From a virus: a DNA stretch of 58,353 nt. A program made the position numbers and the translations under genes. The notes beneath the pieces are model-generated. The model had not been told where the DNA came from and did no database searches. It saw only the letters and a list, made by a program, of their open reading frames with translations. Of the stretch, positions 4,590 through 57,691 are shown piece by piece; position 1 is the stretch's first letter, and the number at the start of each line of letters is the position of its first letter. Location of the stretch: the IMG/VR virus record IMGVR_UViG_3300020283_000004, positions 1-58,353 of that record, one strand, 5' to 3'.

Positions 4590-4611
4590 ATGGAATAACA
4601 AGGTATGAACA

Positions 4612-43800: not shown

Positions 43801-46454
43801 GGAAGTGGAGAGAAAACTGGTGGACTAAAGTTCGTCAGGGCATGTTCGACAAGTTTGCCCCACTCAAGAATCTATCACCTAAGTCTTACATTTTAGCAAG
43901 AATGAGCCGTTCAACAGACGGACCTTTCTCTGCAATGTTCTCACTCGGTCATATCTTCATGGATGAGGATGGTGCGATTGATGTCGATACCTCCAAGAAA
44001 TCATTCGTAGAAAGCATGCGACCCCTTGGTCAAGACCTTGAAACGTTCCTACGTTGGGTTGCCTCTAATCGTGCCTACGACCTAAAGAAAGCACCCAAGT
44101 CAAGGGATGCCCTACAGTTTCTGAATGATGATGAGATACGAATAGGGATGAACTTCAATCGTGGGACTACAATCAATGCCGTAACTGGGCAGAAGGTATC
44201 TCGAAAGAAGTTGTTCGATGATGTGCTCAAGGACTTTCAAGCGGTTCAATCATCAATACTGGATCTCTCAGTCAAGGCAGGAGCAGTCAGTAAGAAGGAT
44301 GCCGACATATGGAGAAACCAGTTCTACGTACCTTTCTATCGTGTCTTTGACGAAGCCCCAACCAGAAGAAATGGTCCTGCTACTTTAGACAGTCTTGTTG
44401 GTCAGGATGCAGTTAAGAGACTCAGGGGGTCTGACAGGGGCCTTGCTGATTTATTGCACAACACGTTGATGAATTACCATCATCTCATTGATGTGTCGAT
44501 GAAGAACAAAGCAGCAACTCAGTCTATTAGAGATTTGGAAAAGATTGGTGGTGCAACAAGAGTTTCAAAGAAAGGCTTTCCACTTGAGGAAGGAGACAGG
44601 CAGGAGTTTGCTCAGGAACTAAATGATGCGGATGATAAACTAGAGTTTATCGCTGAACCAGATGCAGGGCAGACAGTCTACATACGAGAAGATGGGAAGC
44701 GTGCTTACTATAGAATCAATGACCCATTTGTATTGGAGGCATTGATGTCTATGAACTCGATTGAGAAAGACAACCCAATCTACAAAGTGCTGAGAACAAG
44801 TAAACGATGGTTTACTTATGCAGTAACAGCAGACCCTGACTTCAAGGTAGCTAACCTGATTCGTGACTCTATTGGGTCAATCGCAGTGGCCCCACTTGGG
44901 TATAACCCTCTTGCTAATGTGAAGAGAGGGTGGAGAGGAACGCAGAAAGACTCAAAAACCTACGCTAAACTTGTTGCAGGTGGGGGTTCTTTTATATTTG
45001 GGAATGTATCTGGGACAGACCCAACAAGTGAAGGAGCACGAAGATTAATAGAGAGTGGAGTAAAGTCTGAGTTTATTATCGATAGTCCAGACAAGTTGTC
45101 AGGATTAGAGAGAATGATGAAGACAGGTTGGAATCTAGCTAGAGGAGCATGGGGTAAGTACGAAGATGTGGGTACACGACTAGAGAATGTTAACCGTGCA
45201 GCTTTATACGAAAGACTCACAGACCCAAACAGAAGAGACAAAGATGGTAATAGAATAGCCCCATTGTCCCACCTTGAGGCTAGCTATGAGGCCAGAGATC
45301 TCATGGATTTTTCCAACACAGGAAGTTGGGGAATGATTCAGTACATTGCTCAGTGGAGTCCATTCCTTAATGCCAGACTACAAGGTGCATACAAGTTAGG
45401 AAGAGGTGCAGTTAGTGAGAACCAAAGAGTCCAGTTTGCAACAACGATGTTGGCCTACACAATGGCAGCTTTGGGGCTTTATCTTACACACATGGATGAT
45501 GAGGACTTCAAAGAAAGAGAAGAGTGGGATCGTGATACTTACCACTGGTTTAAGATACCAGGATTTGAACAGGCGATAAGAATACCAAAAGCCTTTGAGG
45601 TGGGTACAGTAACCACTATGGCAGAGAGAATGCTTGAGCAGGTGATCGATGAAGAGGCTACTGGGAAATTGTTTGCAGAGAGAATGCTATTTGCTCTGAC
45701 GAACACATTTGCGATGGACCTAAGACCTCAACTTCTACGCCCAATCATTGATATCTATTCTAATAAGAACCCATTCACAGACAGAGCCATTGAGTCTTTG
45801 AGTATGAATAACCTCAATATAGAGGAGAAGAGAAATGCTTATACCTCAGAGACTGCAACGCTATTATCCAGAATCAATGCAGATACAATAGGTTGGGATG
45901 CTGTGAACTTGTCCCCAGTACAAATAGAATATGCGGTTCAGGGAATGTTTGCCTGGATAGGGACATCTGTACTCGCAGCAAGTGACTCTATTGTAAGAAT
46001 GATAAATGGGAAGGAGCCCCCAGATAATGGGTTCAACTCTATACCTTTTGTTCCTTCAGGGGTGGGAGAGATAGTAGGTAGCTCAGTAAGAAGATTCTTC
46101 CCAGACATGGATAGCCCAAAGAGAAGCACTAAATATACGACTCAGTTCTATGAGCAACTGAAGGAGATGAACCAGACCTTTAGCACAATTCGTGAGCTAA
46201 GACAGCTTGGTGACATAGAGCGTGCCATGGAACTAGAGAAAGAGGAGAGAGTTCTGCTTCAATACAGAACAAGTTACAATAGAATACAGAGAAGAATCTC
46301 TAAGTTGAGGACTCAGATGCAACGTATCGCCAACGATCCGAATATGGATGGGGATCTGAAGCAGATGCGAATAGACCGCATGCAAGCGTTGATTAATGCT
46401 AACATCAAAGTCCTTCAACGTAGAACCAATCAAAGATTAGCAGAAGCTAGCTGA
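37824..46454 (+). CDS. Giant polyvalent internal protein with two zincin motifs
   Basis: The 2876-residue protein starts at ATG 37824 (an upstream TTG is less likely). It has a glycine-zipper membrane-like stretch near residues 150-190 (GTAIGTMIAPGAGSAIGAAT) and long acidic, Gln-rich linkers near 640-960. Two separate zinc-protease motifs follow: HESIGH near 1291 and HELTH near 1666. The second lies in a region resembling a large polyvalent protein domain ending GEVEARH. Near 2342 the segment DFKVANLIRDSIGSIAVAPL resembles the LPD38 group. Such proteins are injected with phage DNA and may carry several enzymes. No virion RNA polymerase motifs were seen. Confidence 0.75.
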   Translation: MSKLTDYLNTLPRGTRPWDAWKTRELYLRRLLDDDQYSEQEKNRLIGHYIGQEPENVDVSNTVAGYLDRTAAMTKNSAMIGVNQLRQYFNEQEYFGERDEVDAKAAREQVTKYRGLQESIPRDEGALGVAQDVVSSLPSLIENLAASVTAGYAGAKVGTAIGTMIAPGAGSAIGAATGFVSGILAGLGVNAAMEASSAFDDNSRNEEIRKRLVNKYGDNKDLVNQAQRAIALEAAEAVMKGNVFDPTNIAVAMANTKGGQLFKGFLLGKAGIKPNKFRNKLRVTKDTIGGVVQEGVQESYQDALQQSQTLYQIAKLDAEADPDSQKVPDILDVVKDIDYGQTAYAGLVGGIAGGGFSGLRSAGGKFADRKREKIRQEIRDAIDSGDLDRFNDTRNFYPIDSAERVVIEQEIKDVREGIHVDHRVDKDLTRYDMRNQLANAMAEGEKAFDSFIRKNRNNPLFSDVVNDYFDKLRSAQATAQSQAEIDRIRNQVLIGYNPGEFSLEDLKFREGEGGITDLDEARKVTPGDPSGRFGGNQGIVVDQAYTPPEFAQRTPRERGQRQLEDLTIPLSQRQQARAQEEKATIDLDKATKSQLISYINDDKVSKGLEITGEDTRSLMKLRKAKLKEMAKSIEAQNVTPTTDTQETTASTQEQVDENVETSQREPEPAPVQTEEEKQQIEELREQFLTEYNESDSQFRRRDRDVKGNPFKEISLRKGDEEQVYTREDLNELGYLTDTGEIIDAKIQNDLKERFPEPEQTLDQGDQQTDTEQQPEQQVTEPEDGDTTAQTEDVVTETTVEEEQDQAEPSLTADDITNFISILRPDPNTYIVDARKTKDGTDLDAVEVAVFNDKKQEYDQYEIDPIKARALGIVNQENEIDEQAVADYASRSTEPETAQGDTQATRTETEDAEGVTVVPVQSSVLPGQAEIDEDVEPETREQRARTENNVAYINESGSAVVNEALGIKNSQQRASLAKMANDLNLQELEDLDGVIFIKSKGKKKDQFRYKKGQLESGRNDKGNNITVSKSLVNRLKEYADQNDIKVIVIDDDAPLPTLGADYKTENYRVAVAQTFLKTFGSLSGEQFISKTDTQGPKIFSVNPGETPVAGESVQKTGGSDSPMAEIIELVASQGIRDGYVAPAETEGEFVVNLYLDEEQNVSGVEGPAIKAIRIPIKGVSESNLVDFVETLKNPESKTEVRRESPLFSIAPSSEVGSGRYDRTVVDEAVAQFTREYRGGALLNYKVYDTPEQAQAETGIEFNANARGALVGDQVYLFAKNLRDLQTARKVIFHESIGHYGIRNVLGDDDFNSFLDRVIAERKVDVDAKAKKLLKAKVIKQIDNDGLRLAAEELVAEAAEGRANKSFIDKVIEIISDFLSKHFGRVQPDEIRSMILKAERAFKTGELYFGADRSAYGDFFNAQYSLGIVMDKGQVPTELQRALDYVGRELAIDGNLDTWERLRDTYSKAIEQRDMNVQDKIRDLLNKATYLSIRKASENGGYYVLPDGVWRFHVNDFDNDGNLLWDFKTLPKDWITGARDNDFAFDNLFESEQKIVELAQQGLIKYNKAEPHPRFERYPQDVIAIRLSDFVGHKELERLYPDLFESAEIVFKMPTSRPVKFLGTPALETRLGSAGSAKSKFAEDGREVITFEINAESNITDVMSTLVHELTHGFQTVGNAAMGGSSAVDYEGLRVSTYSDILRAVNESFGALTPEERTSLIDYIKKLEANTESPRYQRKAIFKTQVGEEIRLRTGRSFALDQEVATSLWNIYNTFTGDKTDKSAFWFYQWAAQNKATAKERFGQDSDEHNRAKDVHRLLANTFNRGNRSIFDRRSLLQARSENPMRSMENYQSLLGEVEARHHQNQFRQSIIALREGDMDTFRKTKDAGALALGRRLRIKFSPDEELQMLGEQSQLVDQPVFKIEDMLVKYPGPNKSNPSREEQIRYSIAENEDVPIRSERESGSAPTWMSPEEKAVWMKFGDPHAGKSIGEKFGKWRENWWTKVRQGMFDKFAPLKNLSPKSYILARMSRSTDGPFSAMFSLGHIFMDEDGAIDVDTSKKSFVESMRPLGQDLETFLRWVASNRAYDLKKAPKSRDALQFLNDDEIRIGMNFNRGTTINAVTGQKVSRKKLFDDVLKDFQAVQSSILDLSVKAGAVSKKDADIWRNQFYVPFYRVFDEAPTRRNGPATLDSLVGQDAVKRLRGSDRGLADLLHNTLMNYHHLIDVSMKNKAATQSIRDLEKIGGATRVSKKGFPLEEGDRQEFAQELNDADDKLEFIAEPDAGQTVYIREDGKRAYYRINDPFVLEALMSMNSIEKDNPIYKVLRTSKRWFTYAVTADPDFKVANLIRDSIGSIAVAPLGYNPLANVKRGWRGTQKDSKTYAKLVAGGGSFIFGNVSGTDPTSEGARRLIESGVKSEFIIDSPDKLSGLERMMKTGWNLARGAWGKYEDVGTRLENVNRAALYERLTDPNRRDKDGNRIAPLSHLEASYEARDLMDFSNTGSWGMIQYIAQWSPFLNARLQGAYKLGRGAVSENQRVQFATTMLAYTMAALGLYLTHMDDEDFKEREEWDRDTYHWFKIPGFEQAIRIPKAFEVGTVTTMAERMLEQVIDEEATGKLFAERMLFALTNTFAMDLRPQLLRPIIDIYSNKNPFTDRAIESLSMNNLNIEEKRNAYTSETATLLSRINADTIGWDAVNLSPVQIEYAVQGMFAWIGTSVLAASDSIVRMINGKEPPDNGFNSIPFVPSGVGEIVGSSVRRFFPDMDSPKRSTKYTTQFYEQLKEMNQTFSTIRELRQLGDIERAMELEKEERVLLQYRTSYNRIQRRISKLRTQMQRIANDPNMDGDLKQMRIDRMQALINANIKVLQRRTNQRLAEAS

Positions 46455-46952
46455 TCAAGTATCTTCGGGGAGCTCTACATTCCTGCGTAGGCTCCTTCGT
46501 TTCTTCTTCATCATACTCCCAAGCATAGCTGTACGTGCCATTGCATCGGCATGTTGCTTTCTCTGGTCATCATCCAGAGCCTGAATGTCTGTATGCTGAA
46601 GCCGAGTAGCTGATCGATCCAAAGCCTTCTTTAGCTCTGCGTGCATCTGGTGTTCAGCCACGGATGCCTGATACTCAGGCTCAACATACGTATACCCAAC
46701 TCCACGTTTGGCTATCAGAAGAATCTTGTGATCAGTCAACAACATCTCCTTAAAGTTTTCAATCATGGTTAAGTATATCAGTTGAGTCTGCTGATACTTC
46801 TGTGTGGTTGTCTCTGGGGTAGGAATCTCCAACCCAAAGTTCTCGTACAACCATTCTTTCGTTACGACATCTCCAGGTTTAAACCCTTCCTCGATGAAGT
46901 TCTGCACTGCTTGTTTCCATTGTGGAAACAGCATCATCGTTTTATCTTCCAT
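46455..46952 (-). CDS. Hypothetical early protein, last gene of the minus block
   Basis: The 165-residue protein begins MEDKTMMLFPQWKQAVQNFI, with AAGGAG just before the ATG. It has a segment HKILLIAKRGVGYTYVEPEY and a basic C-terminus (MKKKRRSLRR). This resembles a group of conserved phage early proteins with an unknown role, possibly DNA binding. Its stop touches the stop of the giant plus-strand gene, with no gap. It is preceded by the GGA-rich region, so its mRNA would carry that long leader. Confidence 0.65.
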   Translation of the reverse strand: MEDKTMMLFPQWKQAVQNFIEEGFKPGDVVTKEWLYENFGLEIPTPETTTQKYQQTQLIYLTMIENFKEMLLTDHKILLIAKRGVGYTYVEPEYQASVAEHQMHAELKKALDRSATRLQHTDIQALDDDQRKQHADAMARTAMLGSMMKKKRRSLRRNVELPEDT

Positions 46953-47703
46953 AAACTCCTTGTGTTAAGTGTTATCCGTTGCGCTCATTTCCTGTCTATT
47001 CAGTTTATATCTGCTCAGATACATTCCTTTCTTTTCTGATGAGATCGCTTACTTTATCTTCAGATGAGCTCCGTTCAAATACGCTCCGTTCAATAAGTTA
47101 AACCGTTCATTTCCAATCATTTGTGGGCTCTTCATTTCGGCTCCTCTTCGGTCAATTCATCTGTTCTCCGATCAATAATTTAAACCGTTCTTTTCCGTTC
47201 AGGTCCACTGTGCTGAAGTGTGCTCCCTTTTTTTCATTTGTGGTCCAATGCAGTGTGTTCCCCTACCCTGCTCTCAATGCTATTCTGATCATCTCCAATC
47301 CACTCCGATCCCTTCCATTTAATAAGTTAAACCGTTCCATTCAGGTCCACTACCCTGCTCTCAAATCGATTCTGATCATCTCCAGTCCACTCACTTCTAT
47401 TCCGTCCTCTTATTTCAAATCCTTTCCGTTTAATAAGTTGAACAACCAATCCGATCCTGTATCATCCACTCAGATACGCTGATTTGCGGTCAAGTCCCCT
47501 GTATTCCCCTGCGGTCCTTTCCCGTCCATTCCAATCAATAAAACATACCATTCCAATCCGCTACGCTCACCTGTATTCAAATCAAATCATCTCCTGTGAT
47601 GTCCAATCCGTTTAATAAAATTAACCGATCCATTCTTCTCACTTCCAGTCCGCTGTCCTCTGCTGTATTGTCCTCCAATCATCTCCCGTGTTTTACAGTC
47701 CGA
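46953..47703 (-). ncRNA. GGA-saturated RNA, candidate Csr-type decoy
   Basis: This 751-bp gap contains no convincing gene. By hand count the minus strand has about 49 GGA trinucleotides, roughly one per 15 nt, while the plus strand has none. Many occur as ANGGA, the core of CsrA-binding sites. At least six diverged copies of a unit reading CCGTTCAATAAGTTAAACC on the plus strand occur near 47086, 47168, 47315, 47426, 47531 and 47608. Several can form a GTTYAA/TTRAAC hairpin. Two blocks are repeated at 87 bp distance (47264 and 47351). The density is like that of CsrB/RsmZ sponge RNAs, and the phage encodes a CsrA homologue on the same strand. Alternatives are an anti-Shine-Dalgarno decoy, origin iterons, or an unrecognised leader. 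Confidence 0.5.
47264..47387. repeat. 87-bp-spaced direct repeat in the GGA-rich region
   Basis: TACCCTGCTCTCAA (47264 and 47351) and ATTCTGATCATCTCCA (47282 and 47369) recur in the same order at an offset of 87 bp, with diverged bases between. This indicates growth of the region by tandem duplication. Confidence 0.75.
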
Positions 47704-48273
47704 TTAAACAACCTCAACAGTGAAACGACCGTAAGAGTTCATGCGGTTCTCACACAACCCTTCGATCTCTCCGCACAACTCAAGGATCTCTATCACCTCA
47801 GACATGTTGATGATCTCCTCATTAACAGTAAGAGTGAAGGTAATCGACCACTCGTGAAAGATAGGACGACAAGTCATCACCTTACTGTTCTTCACGTTGA
47901 CCGATCTCACATCCCTGAACTTCTCGTTAGCCCATAATCCTTCGATATCTTTTGGGCCATCATATTCTATTGGGACTTCAGGTTGAGCTATCTGCACACC
48001 GCGTTGTATCTGTTTACCACGCTTTGAAAGCTTAGCCCCTGAACGGATCATTGCTCTCAATGCGTACCCAGGCATGACAGGTCTTGTCCCATCATGATAC
48101 AGTCCACCTTCCCACTTCAGACGATAGATCATCTCATGATCCTCATCTGTCTTAGTTCTCTTACCAGTATACTGTTTCAACTCTTTAGACAGTGGGTCTA
48201 AAGGGTTAGCTAATCTATCACTCTGCACCATTAACGGACTGACCCCTGTCAGCTTTATTTGCTTACGTTCCAT
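47704..48273 (-). CDS. RAMP/Cas7-like protein
   Basis: The 189-residue protein begins MERKQIKLTGVSPLMVQSDR, contains RPVMPGYALRAMIRSGAKLS near residue 65 and ends NRMNSYGRFTVEVV. The opening (LTGxSPL), the PGxxLRxMIR segment and a Gly-containing final strand resemble the RAMP fold of Cas7-type proteins, where the middle motif is often PGSSLKGxLR. I know similar proteins in phage replication regions, but their function is not established. AGGAG precedes ATG 48273. It sits between ssb and the GGA-rich RNA. RNA or single-strand DNA binding is possible. Confidence 0.5.
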   Translation of the reverse strand: MERKQIKLTGVSPLMVQSDRLANPLDPLSKELKQYTGKRTKTDEDHEMIYRLKWEGGLYHDGTRPVMPGYALRAMIRSGAKLSKRGKQIQRGVQIAQPEVPIEYDGPKDIEGLWANEKFRDVRSVNVKNSKVMTCRPIFHEWSITFTLTVNEEIINMSEVIEILELCGEIEGLCENRMNSYGRFTVEVV

Positions 48274-48300
48274 ATATCTCCTATACGAATGTAGTTAAGA

Positions 48301-48317
48301 GCCCCCATAAAGGGGGC
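48301..48317. terminator. GC hairpin between ssb and the RAMP-like gene
   Basis: GCCCCC/GGGGGC (48301-48306, 48312-48317) forms a 6-bp stem with a 5-nt loop just after the ssb stop. On the minus strand it is followed by TCTTAACT rather than a U-run, so it may pause or partly terminate transcription. Confidence 0.4.
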
Positions 48318-48323
48318 GATTGA

Positions 48324-48704
48324 TTAGACAGCAGGACGCTGACTACGTGGCTCTCCACCAAGATCGTAAGAACTATCCTCTCTTGGTTTTTGTTCTGGGA
48401 ATATGTCTACGACACGAAAGGTTATGAACTTATCCTTGTTCTGAAAACGTGTGTGTACATGCACAACATCACCTTTCCTCAAAGAACGAATCGTCTTACC
48501 TTTACCTTTCCCAAAGTTATCCTTGGACTCGATGAACTCACAGTTCGCCCATGAGGTTTCATTGACCCAAGTGTTTGTGGTTTTATCCATGCGAGGCATG
48601 TCAACAGCAATACCAAACTTCAGGACAGTACCCCAATCGAACTCTTTTACTTCTGGGTCAGCACCAAGCCGACCTGAGAAGATACATAAGTTTTGACAAA
48701 ACAT
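48324..48704 (-). CDS. ssb: Single-stranded DNA-binding protein
   Basis: The 126-residue OB-fold protein reads NLCIFSGRLGADPEVKEFDW, then VLKFGIAVDMP, WVNETSWANCEF and KGDVVHVHTRF. This is the classic SSB order. The C-terminal tail lacks the usual acidic DDDIPF-type tip and ends RSQRPAV, so partner binding may differ. AGGAG lies 8 nt before ATG 48704. It would coat single strands during replication and recombination with the helicase, annealing protein and exonuclease encoded upstream. Confidence 0.8.
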   Translation of the reverse strand: MFCQNLCIFSGRLGADPEVKEFDWGTVLKFGIAVDMPRMDKTTNTWVNETSWANCEFIESKDNFGKGKGKTIRSLRKGDVVHVHTRFQNKDKFITFRVVDIFPEQKPREDSSYDLGGEPRSQRPAV

Positions 48705-48728
48705 AGAATTACTCCTGTAAAAATGAAA

Positions 48729-48754
48729 AGCCCAGGCTCGCTAAAACCTGGGCT
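48729..48754 (-). terminator. Intrinsic terminator / attenuator before ssb
   Basis: On the minus strand an 8-bp stem AGCCCAGG/CCTGGGCT (48754-48747 with 48736-48729) is followed at once by TTTTCATTTTT. It lies only 24 bp upstream of the ssb ATG and downstream of the three-way-junction element, so it could act as an attenuator for ssb or end the XRE transcript. Confidence 0.6.
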
Positions 48755-48776
48755 AAGGAACGAAAATGAAAACGCA

Positions 48777-48870
48777 CGTTTATATCCTGAGCAGGGCCAT
48801 GAGCAACCTGCCTCAAGGGTGACTGAAAAAGGAGAGCAATTCAGCCACCCACAAAGAGGAGATATAAACG
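48777..48870 (-). ncRNA. Three-way-junction leader upstream of ssb
   Basis: A perfect 10-bp pair, CGTTTATATC/GATATAAACG (48777-48786, 48861-48870), closes two inner hairpins. One is TGAGCAGG paired with CCTG-C-CTCA (48788-48795, 48807-48815, one bulge). The other is GGGTGACTGAA paired with TTCAGCCACCC (48817-48827, 48840-48850, one mismatch). On the minus strand the order is XRE gene stop, this fold, U-rich terminator hairpin, ribosome site, ssb. That is the order of a riboswitch-like or protein-sensed attenuator. I could not match it to a known class. Confidence 0.5.
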
Positions 48871-48888
48871 CTGTGCGGTGGTTATATT

Positions 48889-49137
48889 TTAAGTGCCACT
48901 CCCGCTAGGCAACGGACCGAACAAGTCATCAAGACTTGTATTAAAAAAGGTAGCGAGCTTTCTAGCGTTTTGGGTACTGGGAACCCTCACCCCAGTACGC
49001 CAGAATGCAACAGTTACCTCTTTTACCCCTATAGATTTGGATAAAGATTTGTTTGTTATTTCTTTGTCATACATAAGTGCTATCAACTTTTTCTGAAAGT
49101 GTGTTTTCTCTTTCTTAGTTGACTGTGGGATCGACAT
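48889..49137 (-). CDS. XRE-type helix-turn-helix regulator
   Basis: ATG 49137 (MSIPQSTKKEKTHFQKKL) gives 82 residues. The helix-turn-helix reads EITNKSLSKSIGVKEVTVAF followed by WRTGVRVPSTQNARKLA, and the end is FNTSLDDLFG. This is the standard XRE/Cro-type domain. It overlaps the upstream gene by 23 nt. It may control the early block or ssb, since its gene is followed by the structured leader and terminator. An in-frame extension upstream to 49266 is possible but overlaps the neighbour fully. Confidence 0.75.
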   Translation of the reverse strand: MSIPQSTKKEKTHFQKKLIALMYDKEITNKSLSKSIGVKEVTVAFWRTGVRVPSTQNARKLATFFNTSLDDLFGPLPSGSGT

Positions 49138-49426
49138 CTCTGAATGCGACTTTCCCTTCGTCATCTTCAAACTCTTCGACTTCCCTAATATTGACATAAG
49201 ACCCATATATTTTTGCCTGTCCGTAGTTCTGCAAAGCAGTCTCGTGATTGTACCCTTTGACCACAACTCCGATCATGTACAGTTTTTCCTTACCTTCACC
49301 TGGAAGGATCACTTCAAAGGCAGGGTCTTTAGCACCATATATTCTTCGAGACATAATTGAGTTTATATAAATGTTAAGCAAAATAAACATCAGTATAATA
49401 AATAATACATGAGTAATGTCAAGCAT
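49115..49426 (-). CDS. Small membrane-anchored hypothetical protein
   Basis: The 103-residue protein starts with a hydrophobic segment (ITHVLFIILMFILLNIYI, residues 4-21). A soluble part with a Tyr/Gly-containing middle and an acidic tail follows. GAGGT precedes ATG 49426. A shorter form from ATG 49354 would lack the membrane segment and fit a transcript from the promoter-like sequence inside this region. No family was recognised. Confidence 0.6.
   Translation of the reverse strand: MLDITHVLFIILMFILLNIYINSIMSRRIYGAKDPAFEVILPGEGKEKLYMIGVVVKGYNHETALQNYGQAKIYGSYVNIREVEEFEDDEGKVAFRDVDPTVN
49394..49422 (-). promoter_or_regulatory. Possible promoter for the XRE region
   Basis: On the minus strand TTGACA (49422-49417) is followed after 17 nt by ATTATA (49399-49394), with TATACT two bases on. 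It overlaps the start of the membrane-protein gene and could drive the regulator and ssb separately from the helicase. Confidence 0.4.
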
Positions 49427-49432
49427 TTTACC

Positions 49433-50725
49433 TCAGACAAGTTCTCCAAATAATGTGTAGTCTTGAACAAAAGCCATACGTGCAGTACCAGTAGCACCAA
49501 ACCTATTCTTGGCTACCTGCACCTCAGCAATACCCTTGTCCCTACTGTCATAGTCATAGTAGTCATCACGGTATAAAAGAAAGATCCGACTGGCAGCTTC
49601 TTCGATCTTACCAGACTCAGATAGATCTGATATCGCAGGACGTTTACTGGTTCTCCCTTCCACACCACGATTGATTTGAGAAAGCAACATAATATTAACC
49701 CCAAGACTCTTGGATAACTCTGCAAGATCATCAACCACTTCGCCAACCTCAAGATATCTTGCATCTCTCGTTGGGACCTTGATTCTCTGCACATAATCAA
49801 CAACAACAAACTTAACATCAAACCTTCTAACATGTGAACGAATGGATGCGATCACCTCAAACAGTGATCTACTCTTATCATCAATGAATAGTTTCAGATC
49901 CGACAACTCTTCAGCGCATGTCTCAAACTTCATCCAATCCTCAGTAGACATGTCATTGTTTGCGATGTTACCTTCTTTGATCAGACACCTACCTGCTATG
50001 ATCTTCCTGATGATCTGTAGTCTAGGCATTTCGATGCTGATCATTAGCGATGGCACTCCTGATTGGGCGATGTTGTACATCATAGACGTACCAAAGGATG
50101 TCTTACCCATACCAGTTCTGCCTGCGATAATATCAAGTTGACCTAACTGCAAACCCCCATCAAGAAACCTATCGACTGAAGGCCAAGTTGTTGGGAGTCT
50201 CTTGTGTTTCGATCCACCAGTCTGCATCTCTGTAAGTTGCTCAACCAATCCATCAGCAAACTTCGTAGCCTGGAATGTGGATGTTCTCTCCATCACACTA
50301 TCCAATCTCTTCTGTGTAAGGTGGATCACCTCTTCACTGGTCATCCCATCCATGACAGCTTCTTGAATTGACTCACCTACACTTATAAGTCTCCTTGATT
50401 CAGCGTTCTCTCTGACTGACAGAGCATGCTGTTCCAACAACTCAGGCATAGGTGGGGCTGTCAAAGATAAAGTCTCAATATATTCTTGAGACAACCCACT
50501 TGGTTCTCTTTTAATTTTCTTCCAAAGAGTAACGGAAGATACTGGTATGCCTGAGCGTGTGAGATTAACTATCTCAGTGAATATAATCTTGTGTCCCGCA
50601 TGGAAGAAATCATTCTCTTTGACAAGAGAAGTGACCGTATCTACATACTCAGGTCTACTAATGACTGCACTAAGTAGACGTTTCTCCTCGTCTATAGCTT
50701 CCTGGTGTATCGTCTGCATTGACAT
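49433..50725 (-). CDS. DnaB-like replicative helicase
   Basis: The protein has 430 residues from ATG 50725 (a TTG at 50746 is less likely). The N-terminal domain is helical (EEKRLLSAVISRPEYVDTV). The C-terminal RecA-like domain has Walker A GRTGMGKTS near residue 203, FVVVDYVQRI (Walker B) and MLLSQINRGVEGRTSKRP. This is the normal layout of DnaB-type phage helicases. It overlaps the upstream initiator gene by about 56 nt. It would unwind DNA for the host polymerase, since no phage polymerase was recognised. Confidence 0.9.
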   Translation of the reverse strand: MSMQTIHQEAIDEEKRLLSAVISRPEYVDTVTSLVKENDFFHAGHKIIFTEIVNLTRSGIPVSSVTLWKKIKREPSGLSQEYIETLSLTAPPMPELLEQHALSVRENAESRRLISVGESIQEAVMDGMTSEEVIHLTQKRLDSVMERTSTFQATKFADGLVEQLTEMQTGGSKHKRLPTTWPSVDRFLDGGLQLGQLDIIAGRTGMGKTSFGTSMMYNIAQSGVPSLMISIEMPRLQIIRKIIAGRCLIKEGNIANNDMSTEDWMKFETCAEELSDLKLFIDDKSRSLFEVIASIRSHVRRFDVKFVVVDYVQRIKVPTRDARYLEVGEVVDDLAELSKSLGVNIMLLSQINRGVEGRTSKRPAISDLSESGKIEEAASRIFLLYRDDYYDYDSRDKGIAEVQVAKNRFGATGTARMAFVQDYTLFGELV

Positions 50726-51614
50726 CCCATGTAATTTCTTGTTCAAACTGTGAGTAGATTACATCTCTTGTGGCAGGGAGTGACTTCGCTTCATCGTAGC
50801 ATTTTGTAAACTGCTCACGAAACCTGCGGTCACCCATCCTATCGAGACTCTCCCCTAAGAATCTATCAGTCCCCCTCAGTCTCAAGATTGTTTCACCCAT
50901 GTACTTGTCCCCAACAATCTTAATCTTTGCACCACCCTTGAGTATGTTCCCCAAAACAGGAGAGTTGAGGAACTTCCACAAGGCTACGTCTGAGCTAGAT
51001 GCTTTCTGGTATTCATCACCCATGAACCTAGCTTCAGTTGGGTTCCACCATGTAGCTCCATGCTTCTTGTATATATTCATAGACTCGCACTTCGCAACAT
51101 AGTTTATGGTCCCCTTCATGACTACACTTCTCCCATACTTGTTGACAGATTTCATCCAGTTGGTGAAAGCAGGTATCTTATCACCAACTCTTGACGGATC
51201 TTTACCTCTGTAAATCTTCCAGTCCTGTTCAAACTCAGGTGGGTATCCATCCTTAGACTTGCTTACCTGCTTCTCCTGCTCAGGCTTTTTGAATAGATCA
51301 TGACTTAGATTGAGAAACATCTTTGATACATTGATCTTGTGTTTCCCATTCTGGCTCATGGTCTTGTTAGTCTTGATAGTCATGACCCCCATCTCTTCAT
51401 ACCCCTTGAGTCTGGTTCTAAACTCTTGCCTAGTAAGAGAGCACAACTCAGCAGATCTTGTCATAGTAAAAGGAATATACCCAAACTCATCCGCTGTGAT
51501 TATAAAATGAAACAACGGATTCTTATAAACTATATGCTTGTAGTAGGGATGATCTGGTGTAATTGAACTCTCAAACGTAAGCCTACTGCGTAACTGGTTC
51601 CCTGGACTTGGCAC
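50670..51614 (-). CDS. Replication initiator / helicase-loader-like protein
   Basis: The 314-residue protein starts at GTG 51614 with GGAGAG just upstream. The N-terminal part looks like a winged helix (FIITADEFGYIPFTMTRSAE and following). The middle has PPEFEQDWKIYRGKDPSRVG and FTNWMKSVNKYGRSVV, a pattern found in phage replication proteins that load the helicase. It overlaps the DnaB-like gene, its expected partner. The exact origin site is not visible here. Confidence 0.65.
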   Translation of the reverse strand: MPSPGNQLRSRLTFESSITPDHPYYKHIVYKNPLFHFIITADEFGYIPFTMTRSAELCSLTRQEFRTRLKGYEEMGVMTIKTNKTMSQNGKHKINVSKMFLNLSHDLFKKPEQEKQVSKSKDGYPPEFEQDWKIYRGKDPSRVGDKIPAFTNWMKSVNKYGRSVVMKGTINYVAKCESMNIYKKHGATWWNPTEARFMGDEYQKASSSDVALWKFLNSPVLGNILKGGAKIKIVGDKYMGETILRLRGTDRFLGESLDRMGDRRFREQFTKCYDEAKSLPATRDVIYSQFEQEITWDVNADDTPGSYRRGETST

Positions 51615-52449
51615 GTTGCTCTCCTATCATGTTCAGTGCTTTGTCTTTGACAGATGTAGGTTCATCCGATCTGCCAACTTGTTCCTGGCTAAAGTAAGTA
51701 TCAATAAAGGTTCGCGATCTTGTTATCACGCCAAGCATTTTCTCGTAGTCCTCATCACTAAACGAGTCACGTTGAGCGTTAAACACAGTCACAAACTTAT
51801 CAAGAGATGATGAGAAGGCATCTATACTATCCTTCGTTAATCCACCGCGAGAACTTACATGCTGCAAGTTGCTCTTACATTGTGTGTGCAAGGGTTTGAT
51901 ATCCGTATGCTCAGCTTTCAATTCTCTGAATGCTTCTTTCTGCTCATTGGTAGGGGGTTGACCACTACCTGATGGTTCCATATGAGAATCATCCTCGACA
52001 TCGACTCGTGGGTCATAGTCTCCGACATCCTGTCCTTGGACTGGAATCTCGTACTTGAAAAACAGAGCGTTCTTATACCCGTATGAGGAAAACTTTCCTG
52101 AAGACTTATCACCGTTGTCCAACCCCTCACCAGGGGCAACGAATTCGGAATAGTCGTCTGGCTTATCGATGTTGATGATTCGGTATACATTGACTCCTGA
52201 CATATGAATTTTACCACCAGATACATCCCTAATCTGCATGTTGTCAATAGACACCCATGAGAAATCAAGTCTGTATTTACAATGTAGTGCTGACACGCTC
52301 GCAAGGACATCATCCACACCACGATAGTTATACTTCTGATGCTTTTGGAAACGATCCTTGGATATTCCCACTTTGCACAACTCTCTCTTCACGCACCAGA
52401 TTCTCTGGTGTACGTTCATAGCAATAATATCTTCCTCTTCGTTAGGCAT
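51583..52449 (-). CDS. ERF-family single-strand annealing protein
   Basis: The 288-residue protein contains KHQKYNYRGVDDVLASVSAL near residue 37, the hallmark of ERF-type annealing proteins. GKFSSYGYKNALFFKYEIPV near residue 113 is also typical. The C-terminal half is a less conserved, helical region. ERF proteins pair complementary single strands in phage recombination, together with a 5'-3' exonuclease. The exonuclease gene overlaps it upstream. GGTGGAG precedes ATG 52449. Confidence 0.85.
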   Translation of the reverse strand: MPNEEEDIIAMNVHQRIWCVKRELCKVGISKDRFQKHQKYNYRGVDDVLASVSALHCKYRLDFSWVSIDNMQIRDVSGGKIHMSGVNVYRIINIDKPDDYSEFVAPGEGLDNGDKSSGKFSSYGYKNALFFKYEIPVQGQDVGDYDPRVDVEDDSHMEPSGSGQPPTNEQKEAFRELKAEHTDIKPLHTQCKSNLQHVSSRGGLTKDSIDAFSSSLDKFVTVFNAQRDSFSDEDYEKMLGVITRSRTFIDTYFSQEQVGRSDEPTSVKDKALNMIGEQRAKSREPVTQ

Positions 52450-53521
52450 ACTCCACCTTTGTATAAGTTGACATTTGACTATAATCCTGAGCCAACACAG
52501 GGTTATCCTTCTTGAATTGAGATGAATTAAAACGTGTCGAAGTTACCTGTTTCACAGACATGACCACATCCCCCTCATACTCATACCCATCATGATCACC
52601 CAACCTTGACAGCAGGTTGTTCTCTATCTCCTTGATAGACTCTTGTTCTGTTTTGATCTGATCTTTCTTGATCTTGATCCTAGAAATCATCTCCATGACT
52701 TCTTCATCTGCCAAGGCCAACCCGCCTGAACGTTCCTTGTTCCTCAATACTTTCGAGGTGGCATCACTGCCATCAACGGGTGGCTCGGCTCCCTGATGAA
52801 AGAGTTCCCTCATGCGAATGAGGTGGTCTTTCAGTTCAGAGATCACAGTCTCATCCCTACGTACAACATACCAAGACATAGAGTGAGGTACGTCAGACAT
52901 GACATCATCAACTTCTTCCCCACTCAGAATAGCATCTACGGCTAAGGGAATTGTTGATGGGTCTTTAAGAATGAGGACTGGATTTATGCAACCATCAAGC
53001 TCATCTACGAGCATCTGGTGTTGCATCTGGATATAGTATTGGGGGACAGTATCTTCAGACCCTGAAGTCCCAAGTTTCTTCCGTATCTGCCAGTTCGATG
53101 TTGACTTTGTTTCCATAGCCCAACGACCTGGATACTTGTCAGTCTCAACCACATGGAAGTCCTTGTTGCAACAGATCCAAGGATGCTGTCTGTTACCCAA
53201 CATATATGGGTCATTGAAAACATCGATCCCAATCATGCGTGAAGCAAGATCCCCAATCCAGTTCTCAACCAAGTTACCAAATCTAATCTTATCCCAAGAC
53301 TTAGACTTACTAAGATCTTTTGGTTCTTCTCTCTTCATATCATCAAACACTTGAGTCGCTGAAGAATAAATACCAAGCAACCCAGGCGATTGAGATGCAG
53401 AGAAGTAACCCATTCTTGAATACTTCTGCTTGAGATCAGAGAACTCTTCTGGACTCAGATCAACAGTAGAAGCAATGATCTCCCCTCTTGGGGAAAAATC
53501 TTCAGGCGTTGGTATCAGCAT
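52442..53521 (-). CDS. YqaJ/lambda-exonuclease-like recombination nuclease
   Basis: The 359-residue protein has RFGNLVENWIGDLASRMIG, then DKYPGRWAMETKSTSN and QYYIQMQHQMLV. The ETK motif with the downstream QxxxQ is the PD-(D/E)xK exonuclease pattern of the YqaJ/lambda-exo family. The C-terminus has a coiled coil (residues about 265-315). It would resect DNA ends for the ERF annealing protein encoded next. It overlaps both neighbours. Confidence 0.8.
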   Translation of the reverse strand: MLIPTPEDFSPRGEIIASTVDLSPEEFSDLKQKYSRMGYFSASQSPGLLGIYSSATQVFDDMKREEPKDLSKSKSWDKIRFGNLVENWIGDLASRMIGIDVFNDPYMLGNRQHPWICCNKDFHVVETDKYPGRWAMETKSTSNWQIRKKLGTSGSEDTVPQYYIQMQHQMLVDELDGCINPVLILKDPSTIPLAVDAILSGEEVDDVMSDVPHSMSWYVVRRDETVISELKDHLIRMRELFHQGAEPPVDGSDATSKVLRNKERSGGLALADEEVMEMISRIKIKKDQIKTEQESIKEIENNLLSRLGDHDGYEYEGDVVMSVKQVTSTRFNSSQFKKDNPVLAQDYSQMSTYTKVEYA

Positions 53522-53684
53522 TCAGCCCTTCATTTGCAATGCGGTTCACAGTTTCTTCTGAGACTCTTGCTGACGAACCCAACTTGACTACTGGTATCTT
53601 ACCCTGATGAACCCAGTTTCTTATTGTCTGTTCAGCGACCCCCAACATCTCAGCAACCTCTCTATACCTATACAGTTTCGTCAT
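53502..53684 (-). CDS. Excisionase-like helix-turn-helix protein
   Basis: The 60-residue protein reads YREVAEMLGVAEQTIRNWVH followed by QGKIPVVKLGSSARVSEETV, a MerR/excisionase-type helix-turn-helix. No integrase is present, so a transcription-regulator role is more likely than excision. AGGAT precedes the start. It is the first gene after the strong promoter at 53744-53772. Confidence 0.75.
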   Translation of the reverse strand: MTKLYRYREVAEMLGVAEQTIRNWVHQGKIPVVKLGSSARVSEETVNRIANEGLNADTNA

Positions 53685-53743
53685 TGTATTATCCTACTAT
53701 GTTGTTGAACCAATATAATGTTCCTCACATTAACTCAACCATT

Positions 53744-53772
53744 AGTATAACACATCTCAAATCAACTGTCAA
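53744..53772 (-). promoter_or_regulatory. Near-consensus sigma70 promoter for the replication genes
   Basis: On the minus strand TTGACA (53772-53767), a 17-nt spacer and TATACT (53749-53744) match the ideal sigma70 form. The downstream order is HTH, exonuclease, ERF, initiator, helicase. The leader contains GGTTGAG and TTCAAC arms that might be an operator for the HTH protein encoded next. Confidence 0.75.
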
Positions 53773-53798
53773 GTATAAAATATCATACTCTCATATAA

Positions 53799-54164
53799 CT
53801 ATACTTGTGTCGGGTCATCCATATTCCCATGATATATTTGACTGAGTTCTGCATCATTAACATAACAGACTTTACCTCTATTCAACTTGCTCCCAGGATA
53901 CTGATAGATCGCAAACTTACCTTTGTTTGCAGGTGCTTTACCCTGCTTTCCTTCTGATATAAGGGCAGGTCTTATGTCTTTTGTCTTTTCAAGATTCTCA
54001 ATCCTTGCTTCAGCTTGTCTGCATCCACAAGAAACAATCTCACCTTGTTGGACATGATCCATCCTGAGCTTCTTCTCATTACCACAATCACAACGAAATA
54101 AATAAATACTCTTTTTATTTACAGTATGACTGTATTTGACCACAGTTAAACGAGTTCCTTCCAT
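53799..54164 (-). CDS. Zinc-motif DNA-binding-like protein
   Basis: ATG 54164 (MEGTRLTVVKYSHTV) follows AGGAGG at 9 nt. Near residues 24-50 the segment FRCDCGNEKKLRMDHVQQGE and the later VSCGC form the Cys pattern found next to AP2 or HNH domains in homing-type endonucleases and related phage proteins. No nuclease domain is visible here, so this could be a stand-alone DNA-binding remnant. The rest is basic. It is encoded directly after csrA. Confidence 0.6.
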   Translation of the reverse strand: MEGTRLTVVKYSHTVNKKSIYLFRCDCGNEKKLRMDHVQQGEIVSCGCRQAEARIENLEKTKDIRPALISEGKQGKAPANKGKFAIYQYPGSKLNRGKVCYVNDAELSQIYHGNMDDPTQV

Positions 54165-54189
54165 TTTCCCAGTCCTCCTCATTTTTTGC

Positions 54190-54372
54190 CTAGGCATAGA
54201 CATCAACTATCTTTTCTCTGTTAATAGAAATTTCTTTTGGCGCATTGATCACCACTCTTGGGTGCTTACCTGAACTAACCAAACGTATTACAACTCTACT
54301 ACCATCTTCAGTAGTTATAGCAAGTTGCTCTGATTTCTTCAGGTTAAGAACCAAACCTCCTATTCTCTCCAT
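54190..54372 (-). CDS. csrA: CsrA/RsmE homologue
   Basis: The start is ATG 54372 with GGAG upstream, giving 60 residues against the usual 61 or so. LVLNLKKSEQLAI aligns with the first CsrA strand (LILTRR..), and INAPKEISINREKI matches the conserved NAPKEVSVHREEI. The key Leu of strand 1 and the Arg of the last strand are kept; the Arg-6 equivalent is Leu and the GE pair is SE, so it is diverged. CsrA dimers bind GGA in RNA loops and block or stabilise mRNAs. A phage CsrA could redirect host translation. A GGA-rich RNA lies at 46953-47703. Confidence 0.8.
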   Translation of the reverse strand: MERIGGLVLNLKKSEQLAITTEDGSRVVIRLVSSGKHPRVVINAPKEISINREKIVDVYA

Positions 54373-54544
54373 CGCGTATCTCCACATAGATTGGGTCTAA
54401 TGAATAAACGAAGTTCCCATTGTCAACAACGATCACTCCATTTGGGTATTGACGACAAGGTTTAACAGTTTGTTTTACTCTCCCACGAACATGCTCACAT
54501 TTACCATTGTACTCTAGTTCAAAAGTTACTTGCTTTCCTAACAT
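54344..54544 (-). CDS. Small hypothetical protein, 66 residues
   Basis: ATG 54544 (MLGKQVTFELEYNGKCEHVR) is preceded by GGAG at 5 nt. The sequence is beta-rich with two Cys and may form a small barrel (RGRVKQTVKPCRQYP). It overlaps the csrA start by 29 nt, which suggests coupled translation. No family was recognised. Confidence 0.65.
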   Translation of the reverse strand: MLGKQVTFELEYNGKCEHVRGRVKQTVKPCRQYPNGVIVVDNGNFVYSLDPIYVEIRDGENRRFGS

Positions 54545-54595
54545 TGAATCTCCATTTTGAGGTGAGCGATCCATCATACATAGCCTCAGTTAAAA

Positions 54596-54898
54596 TTAAA
54601 GGTGAAAAATAATATCTCCTTTCTCACTTTCATCACCGAAAAAATATTTGGTTGAACCCTTGTGAGTACCCTTGACAGTCAGGTATCTCAGCATGTGTTT
54701 AAGTATACTGTAACTAGAATCAGTGGTGTGGAAATGCTGACCAGGAATCCTGCCTGACACCAACATGTTGTAGATATCCAGATGTGAAGTACCTGGGACA
54801 CGACCGATCACACCATTCTTTTTATCGATACATACAGTGTGAAGTAATAATCTGTCAAACAAATGATCAGCAATTTTAGGTGATATAATCATTCTCAT
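54596..54898 (-). CDS. Hypothetical early protein, 100 residues
   Basis: The protein begins MRMIISPKIADHLFDRLLLH. It is mixed alpha/beta, with a His-rich middle (QHFHTTDSSYSILKHMLRY). No family was recognised. Its start lies inside one arm of a 12-bp inverted repeat, which could regulate it. Confidence 0.6.
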   Translation of the reverse strand: MRMIISPKIADHLFDRLLLHTVCIDKKNGVIGRVPGTSHLDIYNMLVSGRIPGQHFHTTDSSYSILKHMLRYLTVKGTHKGSTKYFFGDESEKGDIIFHL

Positions 54899-54950
54899 TT
54901 TAATTATTGATACATGTTTGTATGAACAGCATGAGAAATAAAATGAGAAT
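54891..54950. promoter_or_regulatory. 12-bp inverted repeat, possible operator
   Basis: ATTCTCATTTTA (54891-54902) and TAAAATGAGAAT (54939-54950) form a perfect inverted repeat with 36 bp between. One arm covers the start codon of the 100-residue gene. A further ATGAGAAAT lies between the arms. It could be an operator or a large RNA hairpin. Confidence 0.4.
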
Positions 54951-54954
54951 AATT

Positions 54955-55602
54955 CTAAAATGGAATTGTTTCATACTCATGTTGCATCTGCTCAAGGTTA
55001 AACCCTTCAAGTCTAAGTATTACTTTTAATCTTTCATACTCCATCAATAACTTCTCTCTCCCGACTTTCCACTTCTTGATAACATGTGTCTGAGTTCTAC
55101 AATGCTTCATGAGTTTAGATATCAAGTCAGTGGGTTCAGCCCAGACTTCCCATTGACGGAGTGCTTTGTCAGACAGTGAATCAGAACCACCTGATGCCAT
55201 GATCTTGTCTATAAATGGTTGACAACACTCAGCACCTTCATGCTCTACAAATGGTTGCTCGTATCCTAGTTGCCACGGATCTCTCTTCACCCCAACAAGC
55301 TGATCCATTTTAACTCCGTAGCAGTTGATCATGTGTCTCCATGTACACGGATATTTATTGACGAGCAGTTGTGCAGCAGCAGAACGCAATCTTGTTTTCT
55401 CAGGCCACTCTCGTATTCTTTGTATCGATGCTTCATGTGGGTGTATCAGCATATTTCCACTCTCCGTTAAACCTATTAATAGAAGTTTAGTCTCCTTGTA
55501 AAACTTCTCTCTTGGTAATTCCGTAAGTTCACACATTATGTGGTTTCTAATGTTGTCCACAGTAATGCCTTTCTTAGTTGCAGTTGGGTAGGGGTCAGCC
55601 AT
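54955..55602 (-). CDS. Hypothetical early protein, 215 residues
   Basis: The protein begins MADPYPTATKKGITVDNIRN. It is mostly helical, with a Cys pair (ECCQPF) and a long C-terminal helix (WKVGREKLLMEYERLKVILR). No family was recognised. It overlaps the upstream gene by 8 nt and belongs to the unknown early group near 55-57 kb. Confidence 0.7.
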   Translation of the reverse strand: MADPYPTATKKGITVDNIRNHIMCELTELPREKFYKETKLLLIGLTESGNMLIHPHEASIQRIREWPEKTRLRSAAAQLLVNKYPCTWRHMINCYGVKMDQLVGVKRDPWQLGYEQPFVEHEGAECCQPFIDKIMASGGSDSLSDKALRQWEVWAEPTDLISKLMKHCRTQTHVIKKWKVGREKLLMEYERLKVILRLEGFNLEQMQHEYETIPF

Positions 55603-55957
55603 CTATCATCCTGTTAATTATATCCAAGCAGACCTTGACTGATTCCGTATCATGGAACCAATCGTCAAGCTCATCAGGGTTCATTCGTCTTGTTACAAAA
55701 TAAGTTCTAGCATGCTTGAGAACTTCAAGCGGTAGTGGAATAGCATGTGTCTCGCAGACTATTTCAAGTAGTATTTTGAGTTCTCTTTCTGCTTCTATCG
55801 AAGTGACGGGAGCACCAAACTTCTCATACATCTCCTTGCCTGCTTTCCTAATCCTTATCTGAAGAGGACAACGAGTTGTATATTCTGGATGATCAGAGTC
55901 CCATACAGCACGCTCATACCCTGCTTTCTTATGCCTAGTAACTCTCGATGTTGGCAT
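55595..55957 (-). CDS. Basic hypothetical early protein, 120 residues
   Basis: ATG 55957 (MPTSRVTRHKKAGYERAVW) overlaps the previous gene by 23 nt. A longer reading to 56098 would be embedded fully in that gene. The N-terminus is basic and the C-terminal part helical. No motif was recognised. Confidence 0.65.
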   Translation of the reverse strand: MPTSRVTRHKKAGYERAVWDSDHPEYTTRCPLQIRIRKAGKEMYEKFGAPVTSIEAERELKILLEIVCETHAIPLPLEVLKHARTYFVTRRMNPDELDDWFHDTESVKVCLDIINRMIDG

Positions 55958-56684
55958 CTTTTGATTTCTCCTTCTGATAGAACCACTGAATATCTGAGGG
56001 GCAATCCTCATTGTAGATGTTTGGATCTTCCTGAGTAGTGAACTCCGTGGCAAGATCAAGCATCCATCTTGGTTTGTCTGCTCTGCGATACCTAGCAAAC
56101 TGAGACTTCTCGTACTTGTAGAAGTTTCGATAAGCTAGGACTGGGTTATCTTTGACCTTGTACTGATCGGGCATACATTGGGGAAAATCGTAATGATCAT
56201 ACAGCCCAGGTTCCTCAACAAACATTTGACGAACAGTATTGGATCGATGCCACCCAAGAGGTGGGGGAGCGTCTATCTGAAAAATAGTTTTGCCAAAGTG
56301 AACATGCAATCTAGTATGCCCATCATAAGCAAAGTGTTCAAATGTGCCGTGTGTTTTCTTGTACCTTCTTGAGTATTCACTACAAAGACAGTCAAACAAG
56401 CGTAAGAGTTGAAGGTAGTTACCTTTCCCACTTCTTGCCCAGATTGCTGAGGGATGATTCTCGTGTGTCTTTTTATAAGACCTATCAAGAATGGTTTTGT
56501 ATTGTGGAAACTTCGTCCAGTTGATTTCACCATCATTGGTTTCAACCACTGGGCATTTCTCAGCCCACCATCTCCATGTGGTCGATAACAGTTGAGCATA
56601 CTCAACCACCATCTTCACAACATGTTGGTCGCAATGATAGCGAGCACAAAAGTATGGGTCATAATCTAAAAGGAAAATGTTCAT
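55935..56684 (-). CDS. Conserved phage protein with MNIF...HCDQHVVKM motif
   Basis: The 249-residue protein begins MNIFLLDYDPYFCARYHCDQ followed by HVVKMVVEYAQLLSTTWR. This opening is one I recognise from many phage proteins of unknown function, often in T4-like and aquatic phages. Later segments include a conserved-looking NHPSAIWAR equivalent (ENHPSAIWARSGKGN). The His/Asp/Cys set suggests an enzyme, but none is established. It is coupled to the upstream gene (ATGA). Confidence 0.7.
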   Translation of the reverse strand: MNIFLLDYDPYFCARYHCDQHVVKMVVEYAQLLSTTWRWWAEKCPVVETNDGEINWTKFPQYKTILDRSYKKTHENHPSAIWARSGKGNYLQLLRLFDCLCSEYSRRYKKTHGTFEHFAYDGHTRLHVHFGKTIFQIDAPPPLGWHRSNTVRQMFVEEPGLYDHYDFPQCMPDQYKVKDNPVLAYRNFYKYEKSQFARYRRADKPRWMLDLATEFTTQEDPNIYNEDCPSDIQWFYQKEKSKDANIESY

Positions 56685-56986
56685 TCAAAATCCTCGATAT
56701 CGTTTGATAAGTTATAGTCCACGTTGACTCCCTCAAGGACATCAAACTTGTGGGCTACTTTTTTCTCAGTTGGGTGGGGTGCAGTATCAATCTTTTTAAT
56801 TGATCCCCCTTCCCTTAAATACTTCTCAGTAGCACGTTGTATTTCTTCTCTCGTTACCCCCTTCTTTTTTTTAGATTGCATTGGTTCCAATGTTCTATTG
56901 AACACTATCTTCTTGTCCCTCTTCCCTCTGATCTTCGCTAACTTTTCGTCTATATTCCTCCAAGATATTCTTTCCGAGTTTGTCAT
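56681..56986 (-). CDS. Basic hypothetical protein overlapping its neighbour
   Basis: The 101-residue protein begins MTNSERISWRNIDEKLAKIR and is Lys/Arg-rich (EPMQSKKKKGVTREEIQR), ending with an acidic tail. AAGGAG lies 2 nt before ATG 56986, a start that overlaps the preceding gene by 92 nt. ATG 56881 would avoid overlap but has a weaker ribosome site. Both frames look coding in the overlap. Confidence 0.6.
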   Translation of the reverse strand: MTNSERISWRNIDEKLAKIRGKRDKKIVFNRTLEPMQSKKKKGVTREEIQRATEKYLREGGSIKKIDTAPHPTEKKVAHKFDVLEGVNVDYNLSNDIEDFE

Positions 56987-57689
56987 AGCTCCTTCCCTCT
57001 CCTAAATCCCATTGAACATGTTCACGTACTTCATCCAAAGTCATGCGAGCAGGTGATGCTTGCCTGATCCAACATCTATCAGGTGATCCAAGTGAATTGT
57101 TCACGCTGAAAAAATTATTTGTATGCTCAGAATATATAATGCCTCTGGTATCCTTGTCTCTCATATCTTGAAGAGGATCATCAGGTATCCAGAACAGAGA
57201 AGCATTGCCAGCTTCATCACGATAGTCATTGGTTCGGTAGATATTTTTTTGCCTCAAGTATATGTAGAGTTGATCCCATGCCTTGTTGATAGCAAAAGGA
57301 TTATCTTCCCAACCCACTCCGAAATCATTAACAATCATTTCCTGCACCTTTCTCCCAATGTTGAACCCAATACAAGCATTGAAGATAGTACACAGTCTAC
57401 TGTAGCTAGCGTTAGTGATTTTCCCTGACTTACGCATCCTGGTTACGGCTGACTTCAATCCACGTATCGACTTAGATTGGGACGTATGATACACCCCACC
57501 ATAGAAGTGTATGTTGAACCCATAAGACTTTAGGTTTCTAAGATCATCTTGATAATCAAGATGGGGTATTGTGTATACAGATACAGTCTTGATAGACCCA
57601 GACAACTCAGATAACTCTGACTTGATCTGGGCTTTCATAGTTTGAGCACGCAGGTCTTTCTTCAAGACCTCAGCAATATCAACTCTCAT
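56895..57689 (-). CDS. Hypothetical early protein, 264 residues
   Basis: The protein begins MRVDIAEVLKKDLRAQTMKA and is mixed alpha/beta, with a Tyr/Asn/Asp-rich middle (YRTNDYRDEAGNASLFWIPD). It starts 2 nt after the VWA/metallopeptidase stop, so the two are probably translated together. No family was recognised. Its tight pairing suggests it may work with the MoxR/VWA module. Confidence 0.7.
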   Translation of the reverse strand: MRVDIAEVLKKDLRAQTMKAQIKSELSELSGSIKTVSVYTIPHLDYQDDLRNLKSYGFNIHFYGGVYHTSQSKSIRGLKSAVTRMRKSGKITNASYSRLCTIFNACIGFNIGRKVQEMIVNDFGVGWEDNPFAINKAWDQLYIYLRQKNIYRTNDYRDEAGNASLFWIPDDPLQDMRDKDTRGIIYSEHTNNFFSVNNSLGSPDRCWIRQASPARMTLDEVREHVQWDLGEGRSYDKLGKNILEEYRRKVSEDQREEGQEDSVQ

Positions 57690-57691
57690 AG

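Follow-up and report, generated by a model that had tools for sequence, protein, structure and literature searches.

The window analysed here, a virus record of 58,353 bases, carries a folded RNA directly ahead of its ssb gene, and the question is what this RNA does. The element lies on the minus strand, in the gap that separates a small xre (Cro/C1-type) gene from ssb. The initial annotation had described it as a sensor plus attenuator. We found that a conserved structured RNA does precede a terminator-like hairpin abutting the ssb ribosome site, but a competing antiterminator was not found.

Genomic setting of the element

The structural genes of the window are mostly on the plus strand. The minus strand carries a replication/recombination operon for a RecE-like exonuclease, an Erf-like annealing protein, a replication initiator and a DnaB-like helicase. 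The same operon includes genes for a 103-aa protein, for which no family match was found, an XRE protein, an SSB and a phrog_4652 protein of unknown function. The xre gene (48889..49137, minus strand; stop 48891-48889, start codon predicted) encodes a small helix-turn-helix protein of the Cro/C1 type that matched HTH_3 and HTH_26, both over the cut-off, and phrog_8 in PHROG. The ssb gene (48324..48704, minus strand; ATG 48704-48702) encodes an SSB-like product of 126 aa, which matched phrog_44 (E 6e-10) and scored 24.3 bits against Pfam SSB, slightly below the cut-off of 26.

Only six IMG/VR contigs were found to contain relatives of the locus; together with the window, they make seven contigs in two clades. 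Two contigs are nearly identical to the window and share its clade (SSB 99 and 95%). The other four form a second, distant clade, in which identity is about 60% for SSB, 66% for XRE and 83% for DnaB. The 3' end of xre and the bases past its stop (48877..48913, minus strand) are nearly identical DNA in both clades; of the last 9 xre codons, 7 are identical, compared with 29 of the 57 comparable codons gene-wide, which is a modest excess. A sigma-70-like promoter candidate, TTGACA-16-TATTAT, lies at 49395..49422 on the minus strand (11 of 12 consensus matches), and L003, a contig of the distant clade, has the counterpart TTGACG-16-TACACT (9 of 12) at a comparable position before the 103-aa gene. 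Such promoter-like sites are consensus matches only, and their totals were within the range of shuffles.

The Shine-Dalgarno sequence of ssb, AGGAG, was read from the sequence at 48712..48716 on the minus strand, where the two clades share ACAGGAGTAAT unchanged. They also agree in the start of ssb, ATGTTTTGTCAAAAC (window 48690-48704; L003 5001-5015). This start contains the palindrome GTTTTGTCAAAAC, which may serve the XRE protein as an operator or may be due to chance. Directly past the ssb stop, a GCCCCC/GGGGGC hairpin (48301..48317, minus strand) is kept in both clades and lacks a good U tail. The gene that follows ssb, that of the phrog_4652 protein (47707-48273), is 94% identical in amino acids between the clades, with 126 of 166 comparable codons identical. 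This is far above the conservation of its neighbours and points to a recent exchange or to strong constraint. The stretch of about 750 bases that separates the phrog_4652 gene from the phrog_5926 gene (46953-47706) contains degenerate tandem repeats. Among them is a 44-nt unit present six times, and five of these copies match the reference copy at 61-77% identity; this region is possibly an origin of replication.

A three-way junction followed by a terminator-like hairpin

The initial annotation had claimed a 94-nt three-way junction with a 10-bp closing stem. This was borne out to the base: the element, supported by its fold z-score and by the fold of the distant clade, is exactly 94 nt long and occupies 48777..48870 on the minus strand. 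In P1, the closing helix of 10 bp, CGTTTATATC (48870-48861) pairs with GATATAAACG (48786-48777). The strand joining P1 to P2, UCCUCUU (48854..48860), is identical in both clades in the alignment. P2 (48817..48850) is a hairpin of 11 bp with arms at 48850-48840 and 48827-48817 and a 12-nt loop that is not conserved. P3 (48788..48815) is a hairpin of 8 bp with one bulge, formed by 48815-48812 and 48810-48807 on one side and 48795-48788 on the other. Its letters GAGG...AGGUU...UCAU...CCU are largely conserved, and GAGG sits at the foot of the helix.

A pyrimidine-rich linker (48755..48776, minus strand), alike in both clades and 6 nt shorter in contig L002, leads from P1 to the terminator-like hairpin at 48729..48754. 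This hairpin has 11 pairs, 6 of them G-C, and the tail TTTCATTTTT; the sequence directly after the hairpin reads UUUCAUUUUU. Its 11 pairs are the most among the 13 terminator-like sites listed in 46300-58353. Junction and hairpin together form a compact unit of 142 nt, and the order junction, linker, hairpin, ribosome site and ssb is fixed. A U-rich terminator followed by the ssb ribosome site had also been proposed earlier. The position and a good U tail were confirmed in the window, but the tail is poor in the distant clade. There, the tail score ranged from -10.8 to +11.5 with the point at which the stem was cut, and a terminator scan of L003 did not list the hairpin.

The predicted junction fold has an energy of -39.0 kcal/mol and a z-score of -4.75, with none of 200 shuffles as good, and the whole leader has a z-score of -5.03. 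As a control across the window, 2428 tiles of 96 nt were folded on both strands; the z-score was as low as that of the element or lower in 19 of them, and the energy in 2. The stability of the junction is thus high for the window and not unique. Because some tiles match or beat the element, stability by itself is suggestive and is not proof.

Two other places in the window also fold strongly. One is a second structured leader on the minus strand at 4980-4870 (z -5.5), with closing arms GGACAAGC and GCUUGUCC, followed by AGGAG and then an ATG near 4862; no similar phage record was found for it. The other is a long inverted repeat at 4513-4612, close to where the minus-strand reading frame 3568-4533 is listed to start. 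On both strands, no tile in the window is more extreme than this repeat (z -7.4 and -7.2).

Conservation of the fold by paired changes

The leader letters of the second clade have changed, and MAFFT misplaced parts of the leader. The unforced minimum-energy fold of the second clade nevertheless contained the same four helices, P1, P2, P3 and the hairpin, and such single-sequence folds are independent of the model-fitted alignment used below. A covariance model, R1, was built from the window clade alone and searched against 24 sources (248,806 bases). R1 detected the second clade with a score of 44.2 bits (E 2.4e-8), and its seven matches in the 24 sources were all ssb leaders. With filters off and L003 searched alone, the E value was 1e-9 and the next match reached 7.4 bits. 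A sequence-only profile from the same alignment, run with nhmmer, missed the second-clade leader even with filters off.

In the model-fitted alignment, which comprises three distinct rows from two clades, 14 of 40 pairs were changed on both sides, and none of 500 shuffles reached 14. Cells were paired in 98.3% of cases, while slid versions gave at most 4 pairs and 52.1%. In the distant clade, the pairs changed on both sides were 3 of 10 in P1 (1 broken), 4 of 11 in P2 (none broken), 4 of 8 in P3 (none broken) and 3 of 11 in the terminator-like hairpin (1 broken). Since the alignment had been fitted to the structure, RNAalifold was also run with no imposed structure; these helices were recovered, and 15 of 40 pairs had changes on both sides. 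The covariance search that had been proposed earlier was therefore positive, and the held-out model and the paired changes both indicate a conserved fold. Judged from these sequence comparisons, the fold is kept by selection, since a distant relative keeps the shapes with changed letters, and the comparative evidence is the decisive support for the element. Folding without function, to which the 19 window tiles of equal or lower z-score would be congenial, is contradicted by the paired changes and the held-out model test and is hardly credible.

Narrow distribution of the element

An Rfam 15 scan of the window gave no match at the gathering score; the best match below threshold was L10_leader, with 18 bits against a cut-off of 44. 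The element is single-copy in the window by model R2, for which the best other match (12.7 bits, E 0.42) is at chance level and overlaps the structured leader at 4980-4870. A pattern of its conserved letters hit 103 stretches in IMG/VR, of which 6 were the known contigs. When R2 was run on 74 of the 97 others, one match was obtained, L101 (20.9 bits, E 0.064). L101 was rejected as a relative, as this match was only partial and covered arms and hairpin without the junction core. The remaining 23 loci gave none, so that no new relative was found among all 97.

Searches with ssb alone, with an ssb alignment, with alignments of xre and the 103-aa gene and with a DNA pattern returned the same six contigs each time. 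In further distant loci brought in via phrog_4652 and DnaB, R1 detected no element; the L032 contig ends inside dnaB, which places its ssb leader outside view. The SSB protein search found no isolate phage, and plasmids gave nothing beyond one 29% match. In one open-access library, judged by titles and the beginnings of abstracts, no description of the element was found. We present it as a new candidate cis-acting RNA motif with a narrow, lineage-restricted distribution of seven contigs including the window.

Junction and hairpin are predicted to coexist

For both clades, full ensembles and growing transcripts were searched for an antiterminator, and none was conserved. Within one ensemble, in both clades, the pairs of the terminator hairpin had probabilities of 0.88-1.0 together with 0.66-1.0 for P1. 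In growing transcripts, the 5' arm of the hairpin made only short, differing upstream contacts before the hairpin closed. On these folding models, a classic expression platform, that is, a refolding switch, is not supported.

A strand exchange, in which CCUC of the joining strand takes GAGG from P3, would cost 1.2 and 1.3 kcal/mol in the two clades. It was rejected as evidence for a switch, as a permuted joining strand paired GAGG at least as well in 316 of 500 cases (window) and 329 of 500 (L003), and controls of random letters were equal or better in 190 of 500 and 285 of 500, respectively. With the joining strand masking the ribosome site, the energies were -6.6 and -5.1 kcal/mol, which is weak and without a control. 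A frame in the window, ATG GCC CTG CTC AGG ATA TAA (48800-48780), stands behind an AGG; it was dismissed as a leader peptide, L003 having ATA where the window has ATG.

The ligands named by the initial annotation were SSB, the XRE protein or a metabolite, and the evidence singled out none of them. The element occurs only before this ssb in the searched sequence, which speaks against a metabolite riboswitch. A classical riboswitch of this kind would account for the conservation of the junction and of its unpaired letters and for the terminator-like hairpin behind it. It is very unlikely here, given that no competing antiterminator, no Rfam match and no occurrence before other genes was found in the loci searched. 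As a name for the element, "riboswitch" is an unproven label.

A scan that covers sigma-70-like sites only found none from the hairpin to ssb. The hairpin ends 12 nt from the Shine-Dalgarno sequence and 24 nt from the ATG, which leaves no room for a promoter of ssb's own. With neither room nor site for a promoter, ssb transcription probably arrives from upstream through the hairpin, or else the ssb message is made by processing.

Possible functions of the leader

Taken together, the most likely reading, which we hold tentatively, is that the cis-acting structured RNA in the xre-ssb gap serves as a transcription-level gate in the early (replication) operon of the phage. The hairpin would end part of the transcripts that come in from xre. 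The three-way junction, transcribed immediately ahead of the hairpin, would set the number of polymerases that read through into ssb. The junction would be a module in its own right, contacting the elongating polymerase or recruiting a protein, with no refolding into an antiterminator. It is read as a separate module because junction and hairpin coexist and the strand exchange was no better than its permuted controls. We infer that the hairpin terminates, that the junction affects the hairpin, and the direction of this effect. The fold conserved by paired changes, the predicted coexistence of hairpin and junction and the lack of a promoter-like site from hairpin to ssb all support a gate. The shallow depth of the covariation (three distinct rows, two clades) and the weak hairpin tail in the distant clade count against it, as does the hairpin kept past ssb, which suits mRNA processing equally well.

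Processing and autogenous control by SSB are serious rivals that explain the anatomy nearly as well as the gate, and the probabilities of the three partly overlap, because SSB could act on the gate. If the leader serves mRNA processing or stability, a ribonuclease would cut in or beside the junction; candidates are RNase III, acting on the stacked helices, and RNase E, acting on the pyrimidine-rich linker. The freed ssb message would carry a 5' hairpin just before the ribosome site and be closed by the hairpin behind ssb, and the output of ssb would exceed that of the neighbouring genes. The long helices P1 and P2 (10 and 11 bp) adjoin the pyrimidine-rich linker, conserved hairpins stand on either side of ssb in both clades, and no switch structure is needed. 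However, the identical UCCUCUU and the conserved loop letters of P3 exceed the needs of a double-strand cutter, and the first hairpin has a U-rich tail in the window clade. We regard processing as a possible function, though one less probable than the gate.

In the case of autogenous control, free SSB would nucleate on the junction, spread over the linker and the joining strand, and lower the readthrough or translation of ssb, as T4 gp32 does. The element was found only before ssb, as all seven hits in the 24 sources were ssb leaders. The gp32 system of T4 and RB69 offers a precedent that combines a folded 5' element with an unstructured run reaching the ribosome site and keeps its structure in diverged operators (PMC535899). 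However, a stable hairpin and not an unstructured run lies between fold and ribosome site in our leader, a reading of this stretch shows none of the UUAAA/UAAA repeats seen in the T4 operator, and the linker is 6 nt shorter in L002. Autogenous control is thus somewhat doubtful, and we place it just behind processing.

A further and rather improbable reading is that the junction is an antitermination RNA that needs no protein and is unrelated to put. With its invariant joining strand UCCUCUU, it would fold on the emerging transcript, bind the elongating host polymerase and let the polymerase pass the hairpin. If so, later terminators would perhaps be passed too, and ssb and the genes behind it would be switched on as a block.

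Still less probable is a small RNA or a stable 3' end, in which junction and hairpin would end the upstream transcript or form a short RNA acting elsewhere, ssb being reached by leaky readthrough. A compact unit with a terminator-like tail and the near-identity of the DNA just upstream in both clades would suit this, but no promoter-like site was found just upstream of the junction, and the fold is tied to ssb in 7 of 7 contigs.

Comparison with known RNA elements

The element has parallels at the same kind of position. In lambdoid phages, nut sites lie after a Cro-like gene and before a terminator (cro - nutR/putR - tR1), and putR of HK022 lies between cro and the terminator ahead of the replication genes. 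This is much like the order xre - junction - hairpin - ssb. The joining strand CCUCUU (48859-48854) is partly like the boxA core of lambda nut, and the exact boxA GCTCTTTA is absent from the window. The boxB of lambda is a short hairpin, whereas P2 has 11 bp and an unconserved 12-nt loop.

The put RNAs of HK022 (putL and putR) act in cis on the elongating polymerase with no dedicated protein and promote readthrough of terminators (PMC9378689). Their action goes through the zinc-binding domain of the beta' subunit. The put RNAs are about 70-73 nt long and form two stem-loops in a V with no closing helix, whereas our element is a 94-nt three-way junction with a closing helix of 10 bp. Compared by architecture and not by sequence, the element does not have the anatomy of a put RNA.

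Structured leaders ahead of terminators are also known from the rplJL (L10 leader) attenuator of B. subtilis (PMC4538822). Attenuators of the rplJL type rely on overlapping antiterminator and terminator, in contrast to our element, for which no such overlap was found. The STAXI motif was reported near ssb genes (PMC2864571). STAXI consists of tandem repeated pseudoknots, whereas our element is one junction that matched no Rfam family, and we rejected this identity.

A structured leader ahead of a phage single-strand binding protein gene has been described for T4 and RB69, where the gene 32 operator is a folded RNA whose sequence has diverged while its structure is kept (PMC535899). That operator is a pseudoknot with an unstructured UUAAA-rich run, whereas our element is a nested three-way junction with a terminator-like hairpin. 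By reading of the leader up to the ribosome site, which has a stable hairpin in place of the run and no UUAAA/UAAA repeats, it is not a T4 gene 32 operator. Perhaps the element works like put or like the gene 32 operator; by our comparison, it shares the defining anatomy of neither, nor that of the rplJL attenuator or STAXI. Few RNAs are known to influence termination with no protein involved, and the junction, if it does so, would be an additional class of them. These comparisons point to a differently built RNA, absent from Rfam and with paired changes in two lineages, at the same control point as the T4/RB69 leader.
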